A stretch of DNA of 22,742 bases from a virus: the IMG/VR virus record IMGVR_UViG_3300034418_008765, positions 1 to 22,742 of that record; one strand, 5' to 3'. Of this stretch, positions 1 through 21,382 are shown piece after piece. A program made the position numbers and the translations under genes. The notes under the pieces are model-generated. The model did no database searches. It saw only the letters and a program-made list of their open reading frames with translations, and was not told where the DNA came from. Position 1 is the stretch's first letter. Each line of letters opens with the position of its first letter.

Positions 1-402
1 TGTGGATGTGATATTCTTAACGAAAGAATCACAAAAGGAGCACTTAAAAAATGGTGTAGTGAATCTTGTAGAGCAAAATGGAGGTATAAAAATGATCCTG
101 TAATCAAAGATAGGAACACTTATACCAAACAAAAAGCAAGAGGTTATTCTAATAAATGGAAAGCACTTCAATACAAAGGTGGTAAGTGTCAAACTTGTGG
201 TGAAGATAGACCCGCAACTCTATGTTTTCATCACAGAGACCCATCCCAAAAAGAGTTAAAACTTGATGGGAGAAGTTTCGCAAATAGAAAGTGGGAATTT
301 GTTAAGGAAGAAGTTGATAAATGCGACCTTCTTTGCCATAACTGCCATCATATGATACACTATGGAGGTAGTTGGGAAGAATTCCTAAACGAGCAGGTTT
401 AG
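1..402 (+). CDS. HNH homing-type endonuclease, 5' end outside window
   Basis: An open frame runs from the first base to a TAG stop, giving the last 133 residues of a protein whose start lies outside the window. It has Cys-x2-Cys pairs at residues 63-66 and 112-115, His-His-Arg-Asp at 77-80 and His-His at 116-117 followed by His120. This is the layout of a zinc-stabilised HNH nuclease, in which paired cysteines frame the His-centred active site. A further Cys cluster near the visible N-terminus (Cys1, Cys3, Cys19, Cys23) may be another zinc finger. Free-standing HNH genes of this kind are common in T4-like phages and usually act as homing endonucleases that cut the equivalent site of a related phage. 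The last codons overlap the downstream tRNA gene by 10 bases. Family is fairly sure; the target is unknown. Confidence 0.85.
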   Translation, partial: CGCDILNERITKGALKKWCSESCRAKWRYKNDPVIKDRNTYTKQKARGYSNKWKALQYKGGKCQTCGEDRPATLCFHHRDPSQKELKLDGRSFANRKWEFVKEEVDKCDLLCHNCHHMIHYGGSWEEFLNEQV

Positions 403-492: not shown

Positions 493-522
493 TTGACAGA
501 ACCCCTGTCAAACCCTTATAAT
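493..522 (+). promoter_or_regulatory. Sigma-70 promoter with internal inverted repeat
   Basis: TTGACA at 493-498 and TATAAT at 517-522 are both perfect hexamers with an 18-bp spacer, 22 bases before the start of the next gene. A perfect 7-bp inverted repeat (TTGACAG at 493-499, CTGTCAA at 505-511) covers the -35 element and most of the spacer, the right place for an operator bound by a dimeric regulator. It would drive the three small genes at 545-1262. Confidence 0.8.
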
Positions 523-1016: not shown

Positions 1017-1262
1017 ATGGCAACAACAAGAAGAAAAACTTCTACAACTTCTGAAAGTGGGGCATATATGTCTCAGTATGATCAAGAAGTAGAACAAAGA
1101 CTGAAAGTTATCGAGGCAAAACTTGAAGAACTTTCAAATCAAAAATCAGAATCTTCGACTTCAGATACTTCTGAATTGGAAAAAAAGTTTGATGTTTTGA
1201 TTGAAGTTCTTAAGAAAACCCCTTCTTTAAATATTGGGAAACTTTCAAAAGGTCTTCTTTGA
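1017..1262 (+). CDS. Small coiled-coil phage protein (81 aa)
   Basis: The product has a Thr/Ser/Arg-rich N-terminus (about residues 1-16), then a charged helix with heptad-like spacing of Leu, Val and Ile (about 20-43), a Ser-rich break, and a second amphipathic helix (about 52-68). This suggests a small oligomeric or partner-binding protein. The ATG at 1017 is preferred over an in-frame TTG at 1005; GGAA at 1007-1010 is the only ribosome-binding-like sequence. It is the last gene of the early set. The 5' arm of the endonuclease leader hairpin begins 17 bases after its stop, so readthrough RNA from this gene would contain that hairpin. No family is recognised. Confidence 0.65.
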   Translation: MATTRRKTSTTSESGAYMSQYDQEVEQRLKVIEAKLEELSNQKSESSTSDTSELEKKFDVLIEVLKKTPSLNIGKLSKGLL

Positions 1263-1278
1263 ATCTCGGAAGGACTAT

Positions 1279-1321
1279 AACTACCCTGCTTTATAAATAG
1301 ATATAAGTATCTAGGGTAGTT
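1279..1321 (+). promoter_or_regulatory. Late promoter inside a start-sequestering hairpin
   Basis: A 9-bp perfect inverted repeat (AACTACCCT at 1279-1287, AGGGTAGTT at 1313-1321) ends one base before the ATG of the endonuclease. Between the arms lies the T4-type late promoter TATAAATA (1292-1299). A second, inner inverted repeat pairs 1298-1303 with 1308-1313. The only Shine-Dalgarno-like sequence, AGGG at 1313-1316, is in the 3' arm. RNA reading through from upstream would fold and hide it. A late transcript starting about 13 bases after the first T of the promoter would begin near 1305 and lack the 5' arm. Confidence 0.75.
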
Positions 1322-1819
1322 ATGCGTCATTTTTACACTTATTGTTATTTCGATACAAATAACAAACCATATTATATTGGAAAAGGTAAAGGACGCAGAG
1401 CATATCGTGTTCATGGTAATGTTTCTGTCCCCCCGAAAGACAGAATTCTTATTCTGAAAGATAATCTTACAGAACAGGAAGCATTTATGCATGAAATGTA
1501 TATGATATTTTTGTTTGGAAAGAAAACTGAAGGTGGTTTATTAGAAAACAAAACAGATGGTGGAGAAATAAATAATAATCTTCCATCTTGGACTGGTAAA
1601 AAACATTCAGATGAATCTAAAAAGAAAATATCAAAATCTGTGAGTGGAGTTAATCATCCACAATATGGAAAACCTCTAACTGAAGAACATAAGAATAAAA
1701 TCAAAGAAACGAAGAAGAAAAATCCTCAAAAATTTTCTTCAGAAACAAGATTAAAATTATCTCTTGCTAAAAAACAATACTGGGCAAGAAAAAGGTTAGA
1801 GAGACATGGAGAGTCGTAA
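1322..1819 (+). CDS. GIY-YIG homing endonuclease with NUMOD3-type DNA-binding tail
   Basis: This 165-residue protein starts with a GIY-YIG nuclease domain: a Tyr-Thr-Tyr strand near residues 5-7, the PYYIGKGKG motif at about 16-24, then the conserved Arg-containing helix and a Glu-rich segment ending in the DGGE sequence. Residues from about 90 onward carry two NUMOD3-like segments (Gly-Lys-Lys-His-Ser-Asp-Glu and Gly-Lys-Pro-Leu-Thr-Glu-Glu-His), which contact the DNA minor groove in I-TevI relatives. It is free-standing; no intron core is visible. It is a clear paralogue of the protein at 20750-21382, and both share an unusual leader (1279-1321 here). The stop codon lies at the start of a run of eight A's (1818-1825) that leads into a possible gene remnant. 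Confidence 0.92.
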   Translation: MRHFYTYCYFDTNNKPYYIGKGKGRRAYRVHGNVSVPPKDRILILKDNLTEQEAFMHEMYMIFLFGKKTEGGLLENKTDGGEINNNLPSWTGKKHSDESKKKISKSVSGVNHPQYGKPLTEEHKNKIKETKKKNPQKFSSETRLKLSLAKKQYWARKRLERHGES

Positions 1820-18159: not shown

Positions 18160-18193
18160 TTGACGGATTCGAGTAACTATAGTATTATAAATA
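18160..18193 (+). promoter_or_regulatory. Overlapping sigma-70 and late promoters of psbA
   Basis: TTGACG (18160-18165) and TATTAT (18183-18188) with a 17-bp spacer form a host-type promoter. A perfect late promoter TATAAATA (18186-18193) overlaps its -10 box. Both would start near 18199 and give a leader of about 160 nt. Confidence 0.75.
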
Positions 18194-18199
18194 AGTCAA

Positions 18200-18358
18200 C
18201 ACATTAAAGAATGTAAAGTTTTTTAATGGTTTCAAAACACCCCTCAAACCGAGACCTATAGGGTGTCTAAATAACGTCTCTCATACCTCTACCTGAGGGT
18301 GGTAGAGGAATAGTAAAACCACCATTTCCCTGATGGTCTTACTTTCTGTTAAATTCAA
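18200..18358 (+). other. Structured psbA leader
   Basis: The leader can form at least three hairpins: ACACCC/GGGTGT spanning about 18237-18266, a perfect 8-bp CCTCTACC/GGTAGAGG (18286-18293, 18301-18308) and ACCAT/ATGGT near 18322-18338. There is no clear Shine-Dalgarno sequence before the ATG, so these folds may set stability or translation of psbA mRNA. Confidence 0.55.
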
Positions 18359-19644: not shown

Positions 19645-20647
19645 TGACTGGCTTAAACGAGATCGCTTTGTCTTTGTGGGTTGGTCTGGACTCCTTCTTT
19701 TTCCCACTGCTTATTTGGCAATTGGTGGCTGGCTTACTGGCACGTCGTTTGTTACAAGTTGGTATACACATGGGTTAGCCAGTTCATATTTGGAGGGAGC
19801 TAACTTTTTAACGGCCGCAGTCAGTACCCCTGCTGACGCTATGGGTCATTCTCTTCTTCTACTTTGGGGTCCTGAGTCTCAGGGAGATTTCGTCAGGTGG
19901 TGTCAACTTGGGGGACTCTGGAATTTTGTGGCACTCCACGGAGCCTTTGCTCTCATAGGTTTCATGTTACGTCAATTCGAAATTGCTCGTCTCGTCGGTA
20001 TTCGTCCCTATAATGCGATTGCTTTTTCAGGTCCTATTGCCGTATTTGTTAGTGTATTCCTCATCTACCCTCTCGGACAATCCAGTTGGTTCTTTGCGCC
20101 GTCCTTTGGTGTTGCGGCGATATTCAGATTTTTGCTGTTCCTCCAAGGCTTTCACAATTGGACACTCAACCCGTTCCATATGATGGGTGTTGCTGGTATA
20201 CTTGGAGGGGCACTCCTATCAGCAATTCATGGAGTGACTGTAGAGAATACGTTGTATCAAGATGGTGAACAAGCAAACACTTTCAAGGCATTTGACTCTA
20301 CCCAAGAGGAAGAGACTTATTCAATGGTTACGGCTAATCGTTTTTGGTCTCAAATCTTTGGTATTGCATTCTCCAATAAAAGATTCCTACATTTTCTGAT
20401 GCTTTTCGTGCCTGTCACAGGTCTCTGGATGTCATCTATTGGTATCATTGGATTGGCATTTAATTTGAGGTCTTATGAATTTGTGAGTCAAGAAATCCGT
20501 GCTGCTGAAGATCCTGAATATGAGACATTTACAACAAAGAACATACTTCTCAATGAAGGAATCCGTGCTTGGATGGCTCCAGTAGATCAGCCAGGAGAGC
20601 GTTTTGTCTTTCCTGATGAGGTTTTGCCGCGTGGTAATGCCCTCTAA
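19592..20647 (+). CDS. psbD: Photosystem II D2 protein
   Basis: A full-length D2 of 351 residues. It carries the [16 protein letters not shown] opening, the Tyr in VFLIYPLGQ (residue 159, equivalent to Tyr160, YD, in D2 numbering), the His ligands in [14 protein letters not shown] and in SAIHG, and the EDPEYETF and [10 protein letters not shown]-terminal blocks. The N-terminus before RGW is phage-specific (MVASTMTPP). AAGGA at about 19576-19580 is the ribosome-binding site. It pairs with D1 in the reaction centre; carrying both genes is typical of Synechococcus myoviruses. Codon use is less C-biased than in psbA. Confidence 0.99.
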
Positions 20648-20655
20648 ATAATAAT

Positions 20656-20747
20656 GCTTGTTTGTGGTTATTCAAGCAAACGAAGGGGTCCATAAGACCC
20701 CTTTTTTAATGTAAACTTGTATAAATAACTATAACCACAAACAAAGC
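20656..20747 (+). promoter_or_regulatory. Long inverted repeat enclosing terminator and late promoter
   Basis: TTGTTTGTGGTTAT (20658-20671) and ATAACCACAAACAA (20731-20744) are a perfect 14-bp inverted repeat, extendable by a GC/GC pair around one bulged A (20656-20657 with 20746-20747). The 3' arm ends two bases before the endonuclease ATG at 20750. Between the arms lie the psbD terminator and a perfect late promoter TATAAATA (20720-20727). A late transcript would start near 20733 and lack the 5' arm, whereas RNA reading through from psbD would fold over the leader. Confidence 0.78.
20683..20707 (+). terminator. psbD terminator
   Basis: An 8-bp stem AAGGGGTC/GACCCCTT (20683-20690, 20696-20703) with loop CATAA and a T tract to 20707. 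It lies in the loop of a larger inverted repeat (20656-20747). Confidence 0.9.
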
Positions 20748-20749
20748 AG

Positions 20750-21382
20750 ATGGAATACTACACTTACGCATATTTGCGTGAAGACGGCACACCTTATTAC
20801 ATTGGTAAAGGTAGGGGAAATAGAATAAATCGTAAACATAGAAGGCGCAATACAAAACATTTTAGTCCTCCAAAAGATAAAAATAGAATCATTTTTCTAA
20901 AACAAAACATTACAGAAGAGGAAGCATTTAAACACGAAAAATATATGATTTTTGTGTTTGGTAGAAAAGATTTAGGGACAGGTATTCTTCGTAATATGAG
21001 TGATGGTGGAGAAGGATCTTCTGGATTTGTTATGAGTGAAGAAGCAAAAAGAAAATTGAGTATTTCTCATACTGGAAAAACTAAATCACTTGAAACCAGA
21101 ATAAAAATGAGTGCTGCCAGTAAAGGTAGGAACATTGGAAGAAAGCATTCTGAAGAAGATAAGATAAAAATGAGAGGGAATACTGAAGAAAAATGTATTC
21201 ATTCTAAAACTTATAGAATAACTTTTAATAATGGTTATGTAATTGAAAGGAATAGTGTATATCGTTGGGCAAAGAGTGAAGGATATAGTCCACACCACAT
21301 ATATGCTATGGCATCTGGCAAAAGAAATAAACATAAAGATATTGTATCTGTGGAAAAAGTAGAAAATCTGGAAGCACTATAA
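20750..21382 (+). CDS. GIY-YIG homing endonuclease, second copy
   Basis: A 210-residue protein with the same plan as the endonuclease at 1322-1819. A YTYAYL strand leads to TPYYIGKGRGNR (GIY-YIG motif, about residues 15-26), then NITEEEAFKHEKYMIFVFGRK, which is nearly the same in both, and the DGGEGSSG end of the catalytic domain. NUMOD3-like segments (HTGKTKSLETRIKMS, then GRNIGRKHSEEDK) and a C-terminal helix-turn-helix-like part (about 155-195, with VYRWAKSEGYSPHHI) would read the DNA target. It has no intron. Placed directly after psbD, it may cut psbD or its flank in competing phages. Its leader holds the hairpin-late-promoter element at 20656-20747. Confidence 0.92.
   Translation: MEYYTYAYLREDGTPYYIGKGRGNRINRKHRRRNTKHFSPPKDKNRIIFLKQNITEEEAFKHEKYMIFVFGRKDLGTGILRNMSDGGEGSSGFVMSEEAKRKLSISHTGKTKSLETRIKMSAASKGRNIGRKHSEEDKIKMRGNTEEKCIHSKTYRITFNNGYVIERNSVYRWAKSEGYSPHHIYAMASGKRNKHKDIVSVEKVENLEAL

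Follow-up and report, generated by a model that had tools for sequence, protein, structure and literature searches.

The window (the whole stretch of DNA analysed here, a 22.7-kb viral record) comes from a T4-like cyanophage and contains psbA, psbD, and the PhotoRC-II and wcaG RNAs; the wcaG RNA (Rfam; 1907–2004) precedes an epimerase gene, and the PhotoRC-II RNA (Rfam; 18224–18321) precedes psbA. It also contains two free-standing genes for GIY-YIG endonucleases, the GIY-YIG domain of the first being assigned through the conserved YTYxY, PYYIGKG and R in an alignment. In front of each gene, at what we refer to as site 1 and site 2, a pair of complementary segments, or arms, flanks a late promoter. 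The two genes and the features at site 1 are as follows.

493..522, + strand: sigma-70-type promoter, TTGACA-18-TATAAT, with 12/12 consensus matches; likely source of early read-in to site 1
1017..1262, + strand: small ORF (MATTRRK..), directly 5' of the site-1 device
1263..1290, + strand: left copy of element E, a repeated intergenic element that contains the 5' arm and into which gene 1 is inserted
1277..1287, + strand: site 1 5' arm, ATAACTACCCT, 100% complementary to 1313–1323, with 25 nt between the arms
1292..1299, + strand: site 1 late promoter, TATAAATA, between the arms and 22 nt before the ATG
1313..1323, + strand: site 1 3' arm, AGGGTAGTTAT, which contains a Shine-Dalgarno-like AGGG and ends on the A and T of the ATG
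1322..1819, + strand: free-standing GIY-YIG endonuclease gene 1, 165 aa (Pfam NUMOD3, 2e-10)
20750..21382, + strand: free-standing GIY-YIG endonuclease gene 2, 210 aa

The leader of the first endonuclease gene

The sequence-only reading had described, in front of gene 1, an inverted repeat whose 3' arm holds the AGGG and reaches the ATG, with a late promoter between the arms. The repeat is real and perfect, although its arms are 11 nt long rather than the 9 nt originally given; the AGGG (1313–1316) ends 5 nt before the ATG at 1322, the A and T of which lie inside the 3' arm, and the promoter lies between the arms as described (the cyanophage late promoter has been published as NATAAATA; PMC2984593). 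Among 20,000 dinucleotide shuffles, a fraction of 1e-4 produced an unbroken complementary run of 11 nt or longer across the promoter. In RNA folding, the segment 1270–1330 reached −21.0 kcal/mol (z −4.6, with 0 of 200 shuffles as stable) and had its ATG paired, whereas RNA from 1305, the expected late start, reached just −1.6 kcal/mol (z +0.7), in keeping with the hairpin logic that had been put forward.

Because the promoter at 493–522 matches the consensus so fully and the interval from there to 1277 yielded no strong terminator (one weak candidate lies at 584–605), early read-in to site 1 from this predicted promoter is plausible. Such read-in RNA would hold both arms, fold, and bury the AGGG together with the ATG; RNA started from TATAAATA at 1292–1299 would be without the 5' arm. 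Hairpins that involve a late promoter and a ribosome-binding site have been described for I-TevI, I-TevII, I-TevIII, segB, e and soc of T4 and for mobE of Aeh1, and hairpin control of free-standing endonucleases has already been reported, in the cases of T4 segB and Aeh1 mobE (PMC2988022, PMC3014915). As in the T4 I-TevI group, where a late promoter lies between or beside the arms and the hairpin sequesters the ribosome site in upstream-initiated RNA, at site 1 a late promoter stands directly upstream of the endonuclease gene, and the stem pairs the ribosome site and the start codon, with the 5' arm upstream of the late start. Unlike that group, the endonuclease genes here are hosted by cyanophages, and the gene at site 1 is free-standing within an intergenic element. 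We consider it quite likely that site 1 is a cis-acting hairpin switch of the I-TevI type, best read as a kind known for free-standing endonucleases, here in cyanophages.

Among close relatives of gene 1 in IMG/VR the leaders have diverged and the arrangement has been retained. RNAalifold, run on a MAFFT alignment of the site-1 leaders, gave no consensus structure and was then replaced by counting pairs in a named, hand-drawn structure; in this structure 84.6% of cells were paired, as against 80.1% after shuffling and 23–51% after sliding. Covariation in homologues had been set beforehand as the test of the device, its absence to be taken as refutation, and compensatory changes were found: four pairs change on both sides (for example, from C-G to G-C in two leaders). 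Single-sequence folds placed the ATG region within a stem in 8 of 10 relatives (z −1.7 to −3.7), and left it open in the remaining two, L006 and L040. Together, the comparisons argue with modest strength that the stem is retained in homologues despite changes in the arms. Because mismatches break the stem in most relatives, leaving it perfect in the window's type alone, and because RNAalifold returned nothing on the raw alignment, we regard the support at site 1 as good but not overwhelming.

Element E is a stretch of ~28 nt consisting of a 3–4-bp hairpin closed by a 7-nt YGGR loop, an A-rich segment and CTGGTCGG. Copies lie on both sides of gene 1 (at 1263–1290, ~1802–1833 and ~1857–1887 of the window), and an empty copy is found in the phage S-SRM01 behind the homologue of the window ORF at 757–996. 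Since the left copy supplies the 5' arm, the guest leader in the site-1 family is complementary to its own insertion site. The final codons of gene 1 (HGES-stop) are themselves written within the right-hand copy, and the element also occurs at L044:7172–7245 and L165:15613–15650.

The leader of the second endonuclease gene

The arrangement had been held to occur twice in the window. A second pair of complementary arms does flank TATAAATA in front of gene 2, but its anatomy is different.

20644..20650, + strand: P1 of site 2, CTAAATA, a box of the late type that overlaps the stop codon of psbD and ends four nt before H1
20655..20678, + strand: site 2 H1, small hairpin TGCTTG..CAAGCA, with the 5' arm in its loop region
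20658..20671, + strand: site 2 5' arm, TTGTTTGTGGTTAT, 14 nt, 100% complementary to 20731–20744
20682..20707, + strand: predicted strong intrinsic terminator between the arms, a 9-pair stem followed by a T-run
20720..20727, + strand: site 2 P2, late promoter TATAAATA
20731..20744, + strand: site 2 3' arm, ATAACCACAAACAA, beginning 4 nt past the end of P2 and ending 5 nt before the ATG

For the site-2 arms, shuffling gives a chance probability below 5e-5, and H1 appears in the minimum-energy fold of 20652–20709 (z −4.6). An I-TevI-type hairpin has only a promoter and a loop between its arms, whereas here the terminator at 20682–20707 intervenes, and the 3' arm stops short of the ATG. Transcription entering the site (from psbA–psbD, with TATAAATA at 18186) looks late, not early. 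The idea that site 2 works by the same logic as site 1 is not supported, in view of this apparently late read-in, the terminator in the loop, the second late-type box and the local hairpin, and we rejected site 2 as a copy of site 1. What the site does have is the property expected of same-strand antisense control, namely, an upstream RNA segment complementary to the target leader, and we slightly favour the view that site 2 is an antisense RNA unit. No Rfam 15 family was detected over the devices at gathering thresholds.

Complementary arms in other nuclease leaders

From viral contigs we assembled 117 distinct GIY-YIG leaders. Of the 85 that bear TATAAATA, 61% show unbroken complementarity over 10 nt or more across the promoter, compared with 2% when the arms of the same leaders were exchanged between genes; those 'other late genes' that score highly are mostly other nucleases (several judged by eye). 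In a set of 93 different arm pairs, the commonest start of the 3' arm is after 4 spacer nt past TATAAATA, which is near the expected transcription start. When 31 arm pairs that share a register are compared, 97.7% of cells are paired (63.7% after shuffling and 28–32% after sliding by 1–3 columns), with changes on both sides at 9 of the 11 positions. Note that these 31 rows were picked for complementarity, so the population test on 85 leaders is the fair one; the two agree. Mismatches that would be wobble pairs in the message sense number 25, as against 11 of the A-C kind, a modest excess (p = 0.03) that mildly favours pairing of RNA over DNA. We hold it very probable that RNA pairing is the feature under selection.

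Devices with their arms far apart (class b) share the order late box, hairpin with antisense loop, terminator, TATAAATA, target, ATG. (An automatic terminator caller missed many clear terminators, and class counts derived from it are excluded.) The motif TAAATA ends 1–12 nt, and nearly always 6–12 nt, before the 5' arm in 80 of 82 class-b devices, in the selection of which this box played no part; the background is 1% per 13 positions from genome frequency and 8% near gene ends generally, and the late boxes are short and AT-rich, P1 being partly supplied by a TAA stop codon in some cases. The hairpin stem around the arm recurs with varied sequence (TGCTTG/CAAGCA, ACCTG/CAGGT, GCCTTA/TAAGGT and CTCTAA/TTAGAG), and a stem score of at least 6 is reached around the arm in 40% of cases, as against 8% after permutation. 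Reading from the box to P2 yields 80 candidate short RNAs of 49–73 nt, all 80 with a second, terminator-type hairpin after the arm; the arm is exposed in a hairpin loop in 52 of the 80 predicted folds and is not so exposed in 28. Duplexes between hairpin and leader average −22.0 kcal/mol for cognate and −10.3 kcal/mol for non-cognate pairs. We considered orthogonality as a proof of action in trans and rejected it, since non-cognate duplexes within a genome (−10.3 kcal/mol) equal those between genomes and give no indication of selection over and above drift. The arm of many class-b leaders stops 9–15 nt short of the ATG, so that the ribosome site is only partly covered. The class-b layout fits a putative tandem antisense RNA gene, with an RNA of ~55 nt, that would be mobile together with the endonuclease gene.

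In a further group, class c, the loop that holds the 5' arm belongs to a terminator-like hairpin, the stem of which is conserved. A search of IMG/VR with this stem alone (GGGCAGCAA N14–36 TTGCGTAAGTCCC), which is blind to arms and genes, returned 90 stretches, and together with those collected before there are 54 distinct copies. A late box follows within 110 nt in all 54, and in 53 the loop is complementary to the next leader, with 19 different arms represented; the genes that follow include GIY-YIG and HNH-like endonucleases. A sigma-70 match of at least 9/12 lies upstream of 31% of class-c hairpins, as against 2.5%, among loci that are related and many of which have TAAATA-like boxes instead. 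In some class-c copies a good sigma-70 promoter stands immediately before the hairpin, and the antisense RNA would then be an early one. The stem GGGCAGCAA..TTGCGTAAGTCCC has an unpaired GUAAG-type side (for example, at L091:549 and L221:8827).

The complete genome of the cultured phage S-SRM01 has 27 genes behind a perfect TATAAATA, 14 of them nuclease-like (GIY-YIG, HNH and endonuclease VII types, assigned by PHROGs or by eye) and 13 not (among them tail sheath, scaffold and baseplate genes). Arms with a score of 9 or more precede 11 of the 14 nuclease-like genes and none of the 13 others (p = 3e-5; permuted background 6%). Armed leaders of this Synechococcus phage (MW015081) include those of genes at record positions of about 48536, 51348, 56059, 62515 and 77663. 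The device extends beyond GIY-YIG genes and across several nuclease families. The same genome also has a simple hairpin without a terminator and with a 20-bp stem. The HNH-like ORF at the left end of the window (1–402) has, in an overlapping contig and in S-SRM01, its own short arms around TATAAATA (L003:1649 and L157:13579; scores 8 and 9). Only one kind of non-nuclease late gene stands out for upstream pairing, namely, HSP20, with high-scoring TATAAATA leaders at L050:5261 and L089:4347. In S-PM2, which has few nuclease-like late genes, arm scores are at background only. F-CphI of S-PM2 was considered as a characterised example and rejected, its leader (L291:2085–2215) having a terminator and TATAAATA and no arms.

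The unit starts immediately at the upstream gene's stop codon. The arms found behind psbD in the window recur unchanged in L134 and L093 behind two unrelated genes, and psbD of Sf-CH5 has no unit, which together indicate that the arms move with the endonuclease gene. The proposal that a shared device travels with these endonucleases is supported by the excess of perfect runs, by the contrast within S-SRM01, by the stem-only search and by the same arms behind unrelated genes. The arms, boxes, terminator and their order, the covariation, the association with nucleases and the recurrence behind unrelated genes are all features of the sequences themselves.

Same-strand antisense RNA as a candidate mechanism

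We think it probable, on balance, that both sites are brakes acting at the level of RNA, site 1 in cis and site 2 mainly as a tandem antisense unit. In both, the start of the endonuclease message would be complementary to a same-strand segment just upstream, and the gene's own late promoter would start the message past that segment, so that only transcripts from this promoter would be freely translated. In the site 2 type, P1 would fire and start an RNA of ~55 nt comprising H1 and the intrinsic terminator, the loop of H1 being antisense to the first 10–15 nt of the endonuclease message that P2 starts. This short RNA, were it to accumulate, or the 3' end of the terminated upstream message, which carries the same H1, would pair with the 5' end of the message, hinder ribosome loading and so lower translation; as a second effect, read-through RNA would be silenced in cis through the same pairing. 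The whole unit would travel with the endonuclease gene.

The strongest competing explanation is that both sites are I-TevI-type hairpins that act only in cis, with the terminator at site 2 restoring the 3' end of the upstream gene, the site-2 5' arm silencing read-through RNA, and P1 and H1 having no role. This would suit the very stable fold of 20655–20752 (−33.7, z −6.1), the position of the unit directly behind upstream stop codons, where a guest would part a gene from its terminator, and the occurrence of simple terminator-less hairpins in the same genomes, such as the 20-bp stem in S-SRM01. Yet it leaves unexplained why a late-type box precedes H1 by a few nucleotides in nearly every class-b unit, why the H1 stem recurs with changing sequence, and why the 5' arm lies before or inside the terminator and not between terminator and promoter. 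Because silencing in cis alone explains neither box nor hairpin nor this order, we favour the tandem antisense unit at site 2 and judge the purely cis-acting explanation rather unlikely. It is improbable that the duplex instead shields the 5' end of the message from decay and so raises endonuclease expression: many class-b arms do cover the first nucleotides of the message and end well before the ATG, but the arm reaches or includes the ATG in class c and at site 1, and at site 2 it ends inside the ribosome footprint. Still less probable is that the inverted repeats are DNA operators for the endonuclease or another dimeric protein. Such repeats suit dimers, and I-TevI is a known autorepressor that binds over its own late promoter (PMC2988022); however, arms that lie 50–90 bp apart with a terminator between them are unlike an operator, their sequence varies widely though the encoded proteins are similar, wobble is favoured over A-C mismatches on the message strand, and transcription is expected to begin where the 3' arm mostly starts. 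That chance, or the common descent of a few leaders, has been taken for a device can be dismissed as extremely improbable, since, although many leaders are related and were chosen as homologues, complementarity is retained across dozens of different arm sequences and several nuclease families, emerges from a search with the stem only, and distinguishes nuclease genes from other late genes across a whole genome.

The c4 RNA of phages P1 and P7 is an antisense RNA encoded on the same strand upstream of its target, with short segments complementary to the ribosome region, and is cut out of one common transcript. The tandem unit resembles c4 in having its antisense segment upstream of the target on the same strand; unlike c4, the candidate RNA here is bounded by a separate late-type box and an intrinsic terminator, and it has no Rfam match. 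(For c4, Citron and Schuster 1990 is cited in PMC12197685.) The antisense RNA CfrI of S-PM2, ~225 nt in length, is transcribed from the opposite strand and overlaps psbA and F-CphI (PMC2984593). Like the candidate RNA here, CfrI is tied to a cyanophage homing endonuclease next to psbA; the device described here would be same-strand with an RNA of ~55 nt, and the F-CphI leader is without arms; given that CfrI overlaps F-CphI, a different antisense RNA may replace the device there. Like the T4 I-TevI group, the site 2 type has a late promoter between its arms; unlike that group, it also has a terminator between them, a second late-type box and a local hairpin that presents the arm. In a search of the open-access literature, we found no report of a tandem unit of antisense RNA and endonuclease gene.

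Beyond T4, it is still to be explained how a phage is spared harm from the selfish endonuclease genes it carries. We regard it as an evenly balanced proposition that cyanophage homing-endonuclease genes of several families travel as cassettes, each with its own same-strand tandem antisense RNA gene, and, since each cassette would have its own arm sequence, many separate antisense pairs could coexist in one phage genome. Such a cassette would bring with it numerous candidate phage antisense RNAs, from an abundant group of marine and freshwater viruses, and it is testable in the cultured phage S-SRM01, with its roughly eleven armed leaders. A self-supplied RNA brake that keeps its complementarity despite drift, in front of GIY-YIG, HNH and endonuclease VII-type genes alike, would be a general solution.
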